Of a stretch of DNA of 64,000 nucleotides, positions 21,693 to 26,430 are shown piece by piece; position 1 is the stretch's first letter; every line of letters starts with the position of its first letter. The notes under the pieces were generated by a model. It was not told the origin of the DNA. It did not search any database and saw nothing but the letters and a program-made list of their open reading frames with translations. The DNA is from Spirosoma foliorum (GTDB taxonomy: Bacteria; Bacteroidota; Bacteroidia; Cytophagales; Spirosomataceae). The position numbers and the translations under genes were made by a program. The DNA lies in contig NZ_CP059732.1 in the NCBI RefSeq assembly GCF_014117325.1, positions 3,981,001 to 4,045,000 of the forward strand, read 5' to 3'.

Positions 21693-22565
21693 ATGATCTT
21701 TTTTCGATTATTATCCCGTTTGCCCTTAAAAGTACTTTATGGCATTTCTGATGTTTTGTACTTTTTACTATTCCGAGTAATCCGCTATCGACGTCAGGTT
21801 ATTCTCGACAATTTAGAACATTCTTTTCCCGAGAAGTCCCCTGCTGAGATCCGATTGATTATGAAGGGGTTTTACCATAATCTGGCCGATTTATTTGTTG
21901 AAACCCTCAAACTACCCACCTTCTCGCCCGATGAATTACAGCAACATGTTCGGGTTATCAATCCGGAGTTAGTTCTGGAACAGATACAAGCCGGAAAGAC
22001 AGCGATTGCGATGACATCCCATCAGGGAAACTGGGAGTGGCTTCCAGGCCCTTTTGTACTTAAGGGAATCCCTGTCGATAGTGTATACAAACCACTAACA
22101 AATCCATTTTTCAATGATCTGATGTATAAAATCAGGTCCAGTTTTGGTGCTGTCCCTACCGATATGCATTTGTTGCCACGGCAGATGGTAGCCCGTAAAG
22201 ATACACCCCGGCTCATTGGCCTTATGTCGGATCAGGTACCTGACGTTCCTGAGCAAGCCTACTGGACTGATTTCTTACACCGCGATACACCCTTTTACCC
22301 AGGTGCCGAACGACTGGCTCGCAGCCGAAATCTACCAGTATTTTATATGGAACCCGTGCGCGTACGCAGGGGCTATTACGAAATTTCGATTCAGCTTCTT
22401 GCAGAGCCGCCGTATACCGATTTGCCGCCTGGAACAATTTTAGAACGTTACCGTGACCGGATTGAAGATACGATAAAAAAATATCCCTCCGACTGGCTTT
22501 GGTCGCATAAACGGTGGAAACATTGGCGCGGGAAATACGCGAAAGTGGGCGCAAAGCTGGAGTAA
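21693..22565 (+). CDS. LpxL/HtrB-like lysophospholipid or lipid A acyltransferase (copy 1)
   Basis: The 290-residue protein starts with an uncleaved hydrophobic segment (FFRLLSRLPLKVLYGISDVLYF), then RQVILDNLEHSFPEKSPAEI. The acyltransferase signature AMTSHQGNWEW provides the HxxxxE-type catalytic pair near residues 110-116. It ends with SDWLWSHKRWKHWRGKYAKV, a conserved end of the family in Bacteroidota. Family members move an acyl chain from acyl-ACP to lipid A precursors or related membrane lipids at the inner membrane. A close paralogue follows 152 nt downstream. Which acceptor each copy uses cannot be told from sequence. Confidence 0.88.
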   Translation: MIFFRLLSRLPLKVLYGISDVLYFLLFRVIRYRRQVILDNLEHSFPEKSPAEIRLIMKGFYHNLADLFVETLKLPTFSPDELQQHVRVINPELVLEQIQAGKTAIAMTSHQGNWEWLPGPFVLKGIPVDSVYKPLTNPFFNDLMYKIRSSFGAVPTDMHLLPRQMVARKDTPRLIGLMSDQVPDVPEQAYWTDFLHRDTPFYPGAERLARSRNLPVFYMEPVRVRRGYYEISIQLLAEPPYTDLPPGTILERYRDRIEDTIKKYPSDWLWSHKRWKHWRGKYAKVGAKLE

Positions 22566-22717: not shown

Positions 22718-23590
22718 ATGATATTTTTTCGACTTTTGTCCCGTTTGCCTTTCGGTATTCTGTATGGCATTTCGGATGTCTTATACTTTGTTATTGTCTA
22801 CGTAGTTCGCTATCGTCAACAGGTCGTTCTGGAAAATTTACGGCTCTCGTTTCCTGAGAAATCTCCGGCAGCCATTCGTTTAATTGCAAACGATTTTTAT
22901 CGTAACCTGACTGATATACTCGTCGAAACGATCAAGCTATCTTCTATCTCTCCTTGTGAATTAAAAAAGCGGTTTCACTATACTAATCCAGAGTTAATTA
23001 AGAATTTTCTGACTGAAGGGCAAACCGTAATCTGTACTGGTTCGCATCAGTGCAATTGGGAGTGGGTACCGTCGGCAGCGGTCATTATTGATATTCCAGT
23101 CGACAGTGTCTATAAGCCGTTAACCAGCCCCAAAATGGAGAAGATCATGCAGGAGGTTCGCGCCAGTCATGGTGCCGTTCCAACACCAATGAACTTGCTA
23201 CCTCGCCAGATGGTCGTGCGCAAAGACATTCCGCGTGTCATTGCGCTTGTCGCCGATCAGGTGCCTGATGTACCGGAACAGGGCTATTGGATGGATTTTC
23301 TACACCGCGACACGCCTTTCTATCCGGGTACCGAACGACTGGCCCGTAGTCGTAACTTACCTGTGTTTTTTCTGGAATTGATTCGGGTGCGCCGGGGCTA
23401 TTACGAAGGAACGTTCAAGCTCATTGCAGAGCCTCCTTATACCAATCTGCCGCAGGGGGCTATTCTGGAAGACTACCGAGATAAACTACAAGCCAGCATC
23501 TGTAAGCACCCCTCCGACTGGCTCTGGTCGCACAAACGGTGGAAACACTGGCGCGGGAAATATGCCAAAGTGTGTGCGAAACTTGAGTAA
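22718..23590 (+). CDS. LpxL/HtrB-like acyltransferase (copy 2, tandem paralogue)
   Basis: It has the same 290-residue length as the gene before it and nearly identical ends: both start MIFFRLLSRLP and both finish with SDWLWSHKRWKHWRGKYAKV. The catalytic block is SHQCNWEW, with Cys replacing the Gly of copy 1. The middle third is the most divergent part. The intergenic 152 nt is AT-rich with no strong hairpin. The pair is a tandem duplication in which both copies look intact, so they may add different acyl chains or act on different acceptors. Confidence 0.88.
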   Translation: MIFFRLLSRLPFGILYGISDVLYFVIVYVVRYRQQVVLENLRLSFPEKSPAAIRLIANDFYRNLTDILVETIKLSSISPCELKKRFHYTNPELIKNFLTEGQTVICTGSHQCNWEWVPSAAVIIDIPVDSVYKPLTSPKMEKIMQEVRASHGAVPTPMNLLPRQMVVRKDIPRVIALVADQVPDVPEQGYWMDFLHRDTPFYPGTERLARSRNLPVFFLELIRVRRGYYEGTFKLIAEPPYTNLPQGAILEDYRDKLQASICKHPSDWLWSHKRWKHWRGKYAKVCAKLE

Positions 23591-24348: not shown

Positions 24349-26430
24349 ATGCTCGATTCGCTGCTTACTCCTTCTTCATTGGCAACATTGCCAGATTCAC
24401 CTGTTCTATATACCCCTTCGCTAACAGAGTATATCCGCCGGAAAACCATCACGGTCAATATTGGCGATGTACCGATGGGATCTGATTACCCAATTCGGGT
24501 TCAATCCATGACAACCGTCGATACAATGGATACGCTTGGTTCGGTGGAGCAAAGTATCCGGATGATTGAGGCCGGTTGTGAGTACATACGGATCACAGCT
24601 CCCAGTGTGAAGGAAGCGCAGAATCTGGAGAATATTCGCAAAGAACTTCGGGCACGGGGATACACTACGCCACTGGTGGCCGATATTCACTTCACTCCCA
24701 ATGCCGCAGAATTGGCTGCTCGGATTGTAGAGAAAGTCCGCATCAATCCCGGCAATTACGCCGACCGCAAGCGCTTTGAATTTATTGATTATACCGACGA
24801 AGCCTATGCCTCTGAGCTAGAGCGTATTCGGGCGAAATTTCTACCGCTGATTCGCATTTGCAAAGAATATGGCACAGCCATGCGGATTGGCACTAACCAC
24901 GGCTCTCTTTCTGATCGGATTCTAAGTCGCTACGGCGATACGCCTGCTGGTATGGTGGAATCGGCCCTGGAATTTCTACGGATTTGCGAAGACGAGAATT
25001 ATTATAACATTACATTGTCGATGAAGTCGAGCAACCCGCAGGTAATGGTGCAGGCTTATCGATTGCTGGTGCAACGACTAGATGAAGAAGGACTAAAGCC
25101 CTATCCGTTACACCTTGGCGTGACTGAAGCGGGTGAAGCCGAAGACGGTCGTATCAAATCGGCACTAGGTATTGGAACACTGCTCGAAGATGGCATTGGT
25201 GATACGGTTCGAGTCTCATTAACCGAAGAACCCGAACGGGAAGCTCCCGTTGCTCAGGCTCTCATTGACCGGTACACCAATCGGGCAGCGGAAAGTAAGC
25301 CTATTCCAGCGGTAAACTCATATCCGATCAATCCATTTCAATACACGCGTCGGACTACTCATGAAGTGGCCAATTTCGGTGGTCAGAATGTACCGCGTGT
25401 CATTGCCGATTTCAGTCAGACGCCCGTTCGGGAACACGATGATTTAAAGCCAATCGGTCATTTTTATTTACCCGAACCCGACAAGTGGCGGATGAATGAT
25501 CTGGGTGCCGACTATATTTACACCGGTTCGCATCCAGCGGAGTTCATGTTGCCCAATGGACTGAAACAAATTCTGGATTATGCCGTCTGGCAAACTGTTT
25601 CAGACAAAATCAACACGTTTCCGCTCCTGACTATCGATGCGTATCTGCAAGCAAATGCCAAAAAAGGGCAGCTTCAGGAACGGTTAAACTTTGTTCAACT
25701 AACGCTACCCAAACTTTCTGCCGAACTACTCGAACAACTCCGTTTCGATAAAACGGTTGTGCTCCTGATTAAAACAGATAATGCACATGCGATGCCAGAG
25801 TTACGCCGGTTGTTTGTTGAACTTATCAATCAAGGCTTGACAACACCGGTTGTGGTGCAGCGTGTTTATGAAAACATTCCTTCTGAAGATATTCCGCTTT
25901 ACGCAGCAACCGATGTCGGTGGATTACTGATCGACGGCCTGGGTGATGGGATTATGTTGTCGAGTGTGGCGTCTGTGGTGTCGGGTTCTCAAACCCGACA
26001 AAATCGCGTCAGCAATAGTGTCGGGTTTGAGAACCCGACACCACAGACTAACACACTTAAGACCCTCAACAGCCTGTCATTTGGCATTTTACAGGCAGCC
26101 CGAACGCGTATTACCAAAACCGAATATATATCCTGCCCATCGTGTGGTCGGACTCTGTTTGATTTGCAGGAAACGACGGCTCACATTCGGCAGCGCACCG
26201 ATCACCTGAAAGGCGTTAAAATCGGGATTATGGGCTGTATCGTGAACGGTCCCGGCGAAATGGCCGATGCCGACTACGGCTATGTAGGTATTGGACGTGA
26301 CAAAATTGCCTTGTACCGGGGTCAGCAGGTTATCAAGAAATCGGTCCCTGCTGATCGGGCCGTCGATGAGTTGATCGAACTCATCCGGGAAGACGACCGT
26401 TGGATTGAACCAAGTTTAGTGAATGAATAA
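24349..26430 (+). CDS. ispG: 4-hydroxy-3-methylbut-2-enyl diphosphate synthase IspG with an in-frame insert
   Basis: The 693-residue protein carries the N-terminal TIM barrel (PIRVQSMTTVDTMDT, ADIHFTPNAAE, IRINPGN-like KVRINPGNYAD) and the C-terminal 4Fe-4S domain (SCPSCGRTLFDLQET and GIMGCIVNGPGE). A middle domain between them is typical of the large IspG form of Bacteroidota, Chlamydiae and plants. It makes HMBPP in the methylerythritol phosphate route to isoprenoids. Just before the Fe-S domain, codons about 541-567 come from a 78-nt perfect inverted repeat that keeps the frame, adding VSGSQTRQNRVSNSVGFENP. The relatives I can recall run straight from the SSVASV region into the LSFGILQAARTR region. 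The conserved cysteines are intact, so the enzyme is probably functional. Confidence 0.93.
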   Translation: MLDSLLTPSSLATLPDSPVLYTPSLTEYIRRKTITVNIGDVPMGSDYPIRVQSMTTVDTMDTLGSVEQSIRMIEAGCEYIRITAPSVKEAQNLENIRKELRARGYTTPLVADIHFTPNAAELAARIVEKVRINPGNYADRKRFEFIDYTDEAYASELERIRAKFLPLIRICKEYGTAMRIGTNHGSLSDRILSRYGDTPAGMVESALEFLRICEDENYYNITLSMKSSNPQVMVQAYRLLVQRLDEEGLKPYPLHLGVTEAGEAEDGRIKSALGIGTLLEDGIGDTVRVSLTEEPEREAPVAQALIDRYTNRAAESKPIPAVNSYPINPFQYTRRTTHEVANFGGQNVPRVIADFSQTPVREHDDLKPIGHFYLPEPDKWRMNDLGADYIYTGSHPAEFMLPNGLKQILDYAVWQTVSDKINTFPLLTIDAYLQANAKKGQLQERLNFVQLTLPKLSAELLEQLRFDKTVVLLIKTDNAHAMPELRRLFVELINQGLTTPVVVQRVYENIPSEDIPLYAATDVGGLLIDGLGDGIMLSSVASVVSGSQTRQNRVSNSVGFENPTPQTNTLKTLNSLSFGILQAARTRITKTEYISCPSCGRTLFDLQETTAHIRQRTDHLKGVKIGIMGCIVNGPGEMADADYGYVGIGRDKIALYRGQQVIKKSVPADRAVDELIELIREDDRWIEPSLVNE
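25971..26048. repeat. Perfect 30-bp inverted repeat inside the ispG coding region
   Basis: Arms 25971-26000 and 26019-26048 are exact reverse complements with an 18-nt spacer. Each arm holds the palindrome TGTCGGGTTCTCAAACCCGACA (22 nt, core TCGGGTT/AACCCGA) preceded by GTGG. The whole element is 78 nt, exactly 26 codons, and is read through without a stop. Confidence 0.95.

Follow-up and report, generated by a model that had tools for sequence, protein, structure and literature searches.

REPs are named for their extragenic location and, by the rule given in the portion of the literature used here, carry a 5′ GTAG/GTGG tetranucleotide (PMC6006769). It is established, in the portions of two papers on which we draw, that REP dimers can lie inside genes and that Rickettsia palindromic elements (RPEs) can be carried in frame (PMC3733652, PMC10969869). 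The 2013 survey of GTAG/CGTC elements, in that portion, reports intragenic REP dimers encoding 20-30 residues, proposes flexible linkers as their neutral targets, and includes some species with single or few hit genes as well as recB of two Xanthomonas species, which is hit at about the same site (PMC3733652). The genes concerned are varied there and often belong to DNA repair, and same-site hits are exceptional, whereas in Spirosoma one linker of one metabolic gene is hit in several species. RPE-4 and RPE-6 are equated in the same portion with CGTC-tagged REPs (PMC3733652), whereas the Spirosoma element has GTGG feet.

Here we analyse a palindrome that is read in frame within ispG of Spirosoma foliorum. 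A preliminary description of the locus had likened it to known palindromic elements and noted REPIN-like arms, and it is indeed a dispersed palindromic element with REPIN architecture. Kinship with the RPEs, suggested at the same time, finds no support; the element is a REPIN with a RAYT family that is likely its cognate. The RPEs likewise have a palindrome in frame within a conserved gene, according to the portion used here (PMC10969869), but they hit many unrelated genes and the Spirosoma element, in the copies examined, ispG only; the two are likened by description. Entry into genes with the frame kept, also claimed earlier, is seen here but has a precedent in the 2013 catalogue of intragenic REP dimers, as far as the portion used describes it (PMC3733652). 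The closest systems are REPINs or REP doublets with RAYT, which share with the Spirosoma family inverted GTGG-footed hairpins in tens of copies, nearly all examined copies being extragenic, and a single close RAYT gene beside the same hairpins, here in six relatives. In two respects our genome differs from them: it keeps REPINs without a close RAYT, and one copy is intragenic and in frame. New are the REPIN family of Spirosoma, together with its RAYT, and the recurrent use, across the genus, of a single linker in one metabolic gene; among titles and abstract openings, a literature search found no report of this hairpin family or of REPs in ispG.

The REPIN in ispG

The window, a stretch of 64,000 nucleotides, comes from a genome of 8.85 Mb in a single contig. 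Its ispG ORF matches NCBIfam TIGR00612 with 456 bits (cut-off 280) and Pfam GcpE with 408 bits, and has one match across the whole genome. Spirosoma proteins are the nearest named relatives by IspG among the best 120 of 7999 proteins scored. The inverted repeat is stop-free and in frame, as had been described, and the ORF reads through it upstream of the codons for C596, C599 and C630, which we take to be the 4Fe-4S cluster ligands. The enzyme looks intact despite the insert, since C596, C599, C630 and E637 are invariant in 40 aligned IspG proteins. The window also contains two similar tandem ORFs of 290 aa (21693-22565 and 22718-23590), presumably related to lipid A acyltransferases by their resemblance.

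Table 1. Features of ispG and of the element within it (window coordinates)
Feature	Position	Strand	Basis
ispG (GcpE), 693 aa, large Bacteroidota-type form	24349..26430	+	NCBIfam TIGR00612, Pfam GcpE
Inverted repeat, 78 nt: the REPIN with 4 flanking bases on either side that pair with each other (GTCT / AGAC)	25971..26048	.	
REPIN, 70 nt, GTGG-hairpin-spacer-hairpin-CCAC; touches IspG codons 543-566	25975..26044	.	sequence, genome and genus copies
Left REP: foot GTGG 25975-25978 and hairpin TGTCGGGTT-CTCA-AACCCGACA 25979-26000	25975..26000	+	
Spacer, 18 nt, asymmetric, contains GCGTCAGCAAT	26001..26018	+	
Right REP, inverted: hairpin 26019-26040 and foot CCAC 26041-26044	26019..26044	-	

Comparison of copies defines the full unit in ispG as GTGG-(TGTCGGGTT CTCA AACCCGACA)-spacer-(TGTCGGGTT TGAG AACCCGACA)-CCAC (Table 1). 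The locus had been described as a 78-nt perfect inverted repeat of exactly 26 codons. Its outer 30 nt on each side (25971-26000 and 26019-26048) are indeed perfectly complementary and contain one 22-nt palindrome per arm, but the middle 18 nt are an asymmetric spacer, and the repeat unit runs from GTGG to CCAC, so that the outermost GTCT and AGAC belong to the flanks. The length of 78 nt does equal 26 codons, but off the codon register, position 25971 being a third codon base. A repeat search gave arms of 37 nt (25971-26007 and 26012-26048) that are 92% complementary with 4 nt between them. The palindrome TGTCGGGTT-NNNN-AACCCGACA matches the window twice, once per arm, and never in any of 100 dinucleotide shuffles; allowing up to 3 mismatches, the hairpin is still found in these two arms only within the 64-kb window. 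The predicted RNA fold of 25961-26058 has -74.3 kcal/mol against -26.1 (sd 3.0) in 200 shuffles (z = -15.9). No CGTC tag was found at the hairpin end: outer feet are mostly GTGG, and the ispG copy has GCGTC inside the spacer only. Seven Rfam matches at E up to 1, all below the gathering score and mostly to microRNA precursors on the long hairpin, are taken as chance.

An AlphaFold model of IspG was built on 40 sequences and reached a mean pLDDT of 66.9, with the remaining four models at 49.6-55.9. In it, residues 543-563 form a coil with pLDDT below 50 between a strand (534-538) and a helix (565-585). Nine further segments also fall below 50, some of them conserved, e.g., 586-598 and 631-637. 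Given a weak model and low pLDDT in conserved stretches, the low values at the insert say little about disorder there. The alignment to the solved relative 3noy spans residues 30-305 and 578-680, and the linker lies outside both.

The hairpin family in the genome and the genus

The hairpin TGTCGGGTTNNNNAACCCGACA occurs, with up to 2 mismatches, at 64 places in the source genome, and its reversed control at none. Twin hairpins of the exact pattern, which misses decayed copies, number 6 in this genome and 39 in 12 of the 36 distinct genomes of the genus set (our own included), with none in 23 other genomes and none in the control; two contigs of the set (L054 and L139) appear to be one (478,010 bases). 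Beyond the outer stems, the adjoining tetranucleotide reads GTGG at 59 of the 78 ends, GTGA at 8 and GTGC at 4, with seven others found once each. The twin core measures 56-68 nt, and 61-63 nt in 31 of the 39 twins. Spacers with TTGCTGACGC or its complement (up to 2 mismatches) are found in 25 of 39, split 12 to 13 between the two orientations. At many of the listed hairpin places a substitution in one half of the stem is matched by one in the other half (e.g., TGTCAGGTT..AACCTGACA), which preserves the pairing. With its GTGG feet, its inverted REP pair around a short spacer and its many dispersed, mainly extragenic copies, the element is, by these sequence features, a REPIN, i.e., REP hairpins inverted around a spacer.

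The flanks outside the feet are also complementary to each other more often than expected (37 versus 13.3, sd 4.6, in shuffled pairings of 34 elements, with 1 of 5000 as high). Examples are TGTGAT/ATCACA (L163) and TGGTGA/TCACCA (L182), and the GTCT/AGAC of ispG belongs to the same set; the excess may point to small palindromic targets or to older nested copies. At four loci of the source genome (L010, L014, L016 and L023), over spans of about 110 nt, outer family hairpins enclose an inner pair, AGGTTTCTCAAAACC / GGTTTTGAGAAACC. We rejected the idea that the elements are adapted to be coding. Of 6 reading frames, a mean of 2.82 are open in the 39 twins, compared with 2.75 in 70-nt flank windows and 2.01 in mononucleotide shuffles.

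A candidate RAYT transposase

With 14 exact twins, G006 has more of them than any other genome, and a Y1_Tnp search of the genus gave a single match there. The gene (protein L220, locus L222) scores 88.7 bits against NF047646 REP_Tyr_transpos (cut-off 80) and is flanked by family hairpins. Five further genomes of the genus contain a single-copy orthologue with 66-70% identity. Family hairpins with up to 2 mismatches are found near all six of these close RAYT genes, on both sides at four (L222, L224, L225 and L226) and on one side only at two, where L223 has a single, imperfect hairpin and the contig of L227 ends at the gene. Beside the genes at L224-L227 the hairpins lie 73-88 nt apart. Twins are present in 6 of 6 genomes with this RAYT versus 6 of 30 others (one-sided P = 4.7×10−4, a value that ignores kinship). 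Judged from this association, the gene is likely the cognate RAYT of the hairpin family. In the G006 protein a motif that reads NHIH in the other aligned copies (the L227 copy is outside the comparison) reads NYIH. We take NHIH to be the catalytic motif, and the G006 RAYT may therefore be inactive.

In the source genome no close RAYT was found; its two RAYT-like matches are distant, with 30% and 34% identity. G028, which also carries an ispG insert, has no RAYT-like match. Ten Y1_Tnp matches of the source genome were considered as its RAYT and rejected, as none has a hairpin within about 1.5 kb with 3 mismatches allowed. Of 13 more distant RAYT-like loci, 11 have no hairpin nearby and two (L230 and L234) have only a poor hairpin match, which lies some 750-790 bases ahead of that to the transposase. 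Outside the genus, two RAYT orthologues with 51-52% identity (L271 and L272) lie within arrays of 7 and 9 copies of a related hairpin, TTTCGGTTTCTCAAAACCGAAA, with a loop that is mostly CTCA/TGAG as in the Spirosoma family; this suggests that hairpin and RAYT evolve together. A further relative with 55% identity and one internal stop (L273) has no match to the pattern and a different, GTGC-footed hairpin on each side.

IspG linkers and the gene tree

The stretch from GLGDG to FGILQAAR is short in most of the 120 listed IspG proteins. A one-substitution motif finds the element peptide in 11 of them, our own included, with P0009 carrying half only. The block had been called a patch that relatives lack. 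It is absent from the three nearest proteins in the gene tree (P0004, P0005 and P0022), but in view of the 11 carriers it is no peculiarity of this genome. Insert DNA was examined for 3 of the 11 insert-bearing proteins, the other eight (P0003, P0006, P0008, P0009, P0014, P0024, P0027 and P0057) being represented by protein sequence, and at the DNA level the insert is present in 3 of the 36 genus genomes (G000, our own; G012; and G028); the linkers of the remaining genomes have 17-26 residues. Our linker exceeds those of its sisters by 22 codons, i.e., 66 nt rather than 70, which presupposes small changes in the flanks. The copies also differ from one another: the spacer of G028 is the reverse complement of the GCGTCAGCAAT spacer in our copy, and the left arm of P0057 is read in another frame (VGFSNPT versus SGSQTR). 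Decay is visible in the insert peptides of P0006, P0008, P0009 and P0014. Three further proteins (P0067, P0072 and P0096) have long linkers without a clear REPIN signature; hence the linker also grows by other means.

We scored linkers against the arms of the element for footprints of former inserts. Of 37 linkers in the genus, 4 score at least 11, the three inserts themselves among them, and a score of at least 9 is reached by 5 of the 37 versus 16 of 1480 control windows. The fourth linker, L041, contains GTGGTGTCGGG and scores 11, a value attained by 2 of 1480 shuffles and by none of 1480 windows from other parts of ispG; it is perhaps the 11-nt scar of a former insert. Widespread footprints in empty linkers were considered and are unsupported beyond this case in the 37 genus linkers.

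The best explanation of this distribution is probably the repeated insertion of REPINs into one permissive IspG linker, kept in frame by selection on IspG. In a tree of IspG alone, built by a quick search with the linker excluded and with support below 80 at 41 of 115 inner branches, 10 changes are required to account for the 11 rows with an insert among the 120, and well-supported branches force at least 6 of them. The insert label is no more clustered than when shuffled (142 of 500 shuffles are as low). The alternative that a single REPIN entered ispG in early Spirosoma, was lost many times, and was homogenised in the survivors by conversion with other REPINs is unlikely, though it finds some footing in the data. 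P0007 and P0014 are neighbours in the tree (support 94) and share the insert, and the half-deleted or scar-like linkers of P0009 (NVGFENPTPQ) and L041 are what losses would leave. At support 95, a single gain followed by at least 6 losses fits as well as a gains-only history, for which at least 6 gains are likewise needed. Against a single origin, one gain needs 29 losses on the resolved tree and at least 19 at support 80, the other three rows of the well-supported clade of four that contains our own protein are without the insert, and spacer orientation and arm frame vary between copies. A pattern like that of repeated insertion could also arise if ispG alleles were transferred, or if REPIN copies converted one another at a site already occupied.

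Coding and extragenic positions

We called a repeat inside coding sequence when a single open frame ran through it and the sequence to its left and right was coding-like, using a codon model trained on the long ORFs of the window. By this measure 1 of 46 repeat-bearing loci in the source genome is inside coding sequence, namely ispG. The 46 loci comprise 50 of the 64 hairpin places and 6 further BLAST matches; the other 14 places lie outside this set, though some are possibly among the six BLAST matches. One locus (L250) holds three hairpins, each of which was rechecked singly. Among the 39 genus twins, 3 are inside coding sequence (L147, L166 and L175), all in the same ispG linker. As a control, random 70-nt positions in 47 loci were called coding in 752 of 1500 cases. 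Other twins in open frames, judged by eye, lie upstream of likely starts or in unlikely frames, and two at possible N-termini (L192 and L146) have an unsure coding call. Thus, in the 46 loci and the 39 twins, we did not find many unrelated genes hit in frame, but ispG only. Peptide searches of 5.8 billion proteins were restricted to candidates of about 390-1230 aa, a length similar to the query, and miss decayed copies. The P0002 region gave 5 hits (query included) among 9 candidates, all IspG, and did not return P0006, P0007, P0008, P0014, P0024 or P0057; P0057 found itself only, also of 9 candidates.

The intragenic cases found all fall into one linker of one gene, which would fit insertions that are favoured and so fixed time and again. 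In that case, folding at the passage from the insert domain to the 4Fe-4S domain would be slowed or shaped by the hairpin in the mRNA or by the 24 additional residues, and the very stable hairpin does lie close to the domain border. We nevertheless regard such an advantage as quite improbable, given that 33 of 36 genus genomes do without the insert, that its peptide varies (P0006, P0008 and P0014), and that the linkers of P0067, P0072 and P0096 have expanded without a clear REP signature. It is very improbable that the block is absent from the protein because the hairpin is bypassed in translation or removed from the mRNA. A perfect 30-bp stem is unusual for a coding region, but a skipped block need not preserve the frame, and the ispG frame is free of stops in all three carriers with DNA; the 11 predicted insert proteins also read straight through, although this set is biased as broken frames would go unlisted.

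The last alternative, that conserved IspG coding sequence yields the palindrome as a by-product, can practically be dismissed, as most listed IspG relatives have no palindrome peptide and the same DNA stands at dozens of genome sites outside coding sequence. In agreement with the preliminary description, which had named the same residues in distant IspG proteins as the observation that would contradict it, none of 82 linkers from outside the genus scores 11 or more against the arms. The highest score, 10, belongs to a single linker, that of L072. This metagenome bin goes under the title Spirosoma fluviale, but its IspG is only 65% identical to that of the window and has a different linker; the bin was counted outside the genus and is probably mislabelled.

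Probable repeated insertion into one linker

Under repeated insertion, the REPIN would be a non-autonomous mobile unit on which a RAYT acts in trans. It would enter the IspG linker that leads from the end of the insert domain to the helix preceding the 4Fe-4S domain, a place that may accept additional residues. Because IspG must stay functional, only insertions that are stop-free and have a net length that is a multiple of three would survive, and these would be translated as neutral additions and later decay through in-frame changes. In Spirosoma, the same linker would have been entered repeatedly by different REPIN copies. Our own copy is probably a fixed, translated passenger, because the genome now has no close RAYT, which it may have lost after the insertion. 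Two of the six RAYT loci have one-sided hairpins and low pLDDT is not confined to the insert, so we hold this explanation with caution.

A separate matter is whether the ispG linker truly serves as a recurrent capture site for REPINs in Spirosoma, through preferential entry or through selected insertions; we consider it a possibility worth entertaining, though on balance we lean against it. If so, a selfish RAYT system would have reshaped one core enzyme repeatedly, in both orientations and in more than one frame, while practically every other gene was spared by REPINs. The ispG linkers amount to a replicated experiment, set up by nature, on the way in which a selfish palindrome turns into protein, in the same gene and linker, in several species, and with fresh as well as decayed copies. 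With a candidate transposase family in hand, they make the question of whether such inserts are tolerated or favoured directly testable, and we suggest that they may serve as a record of past REPIN activity.
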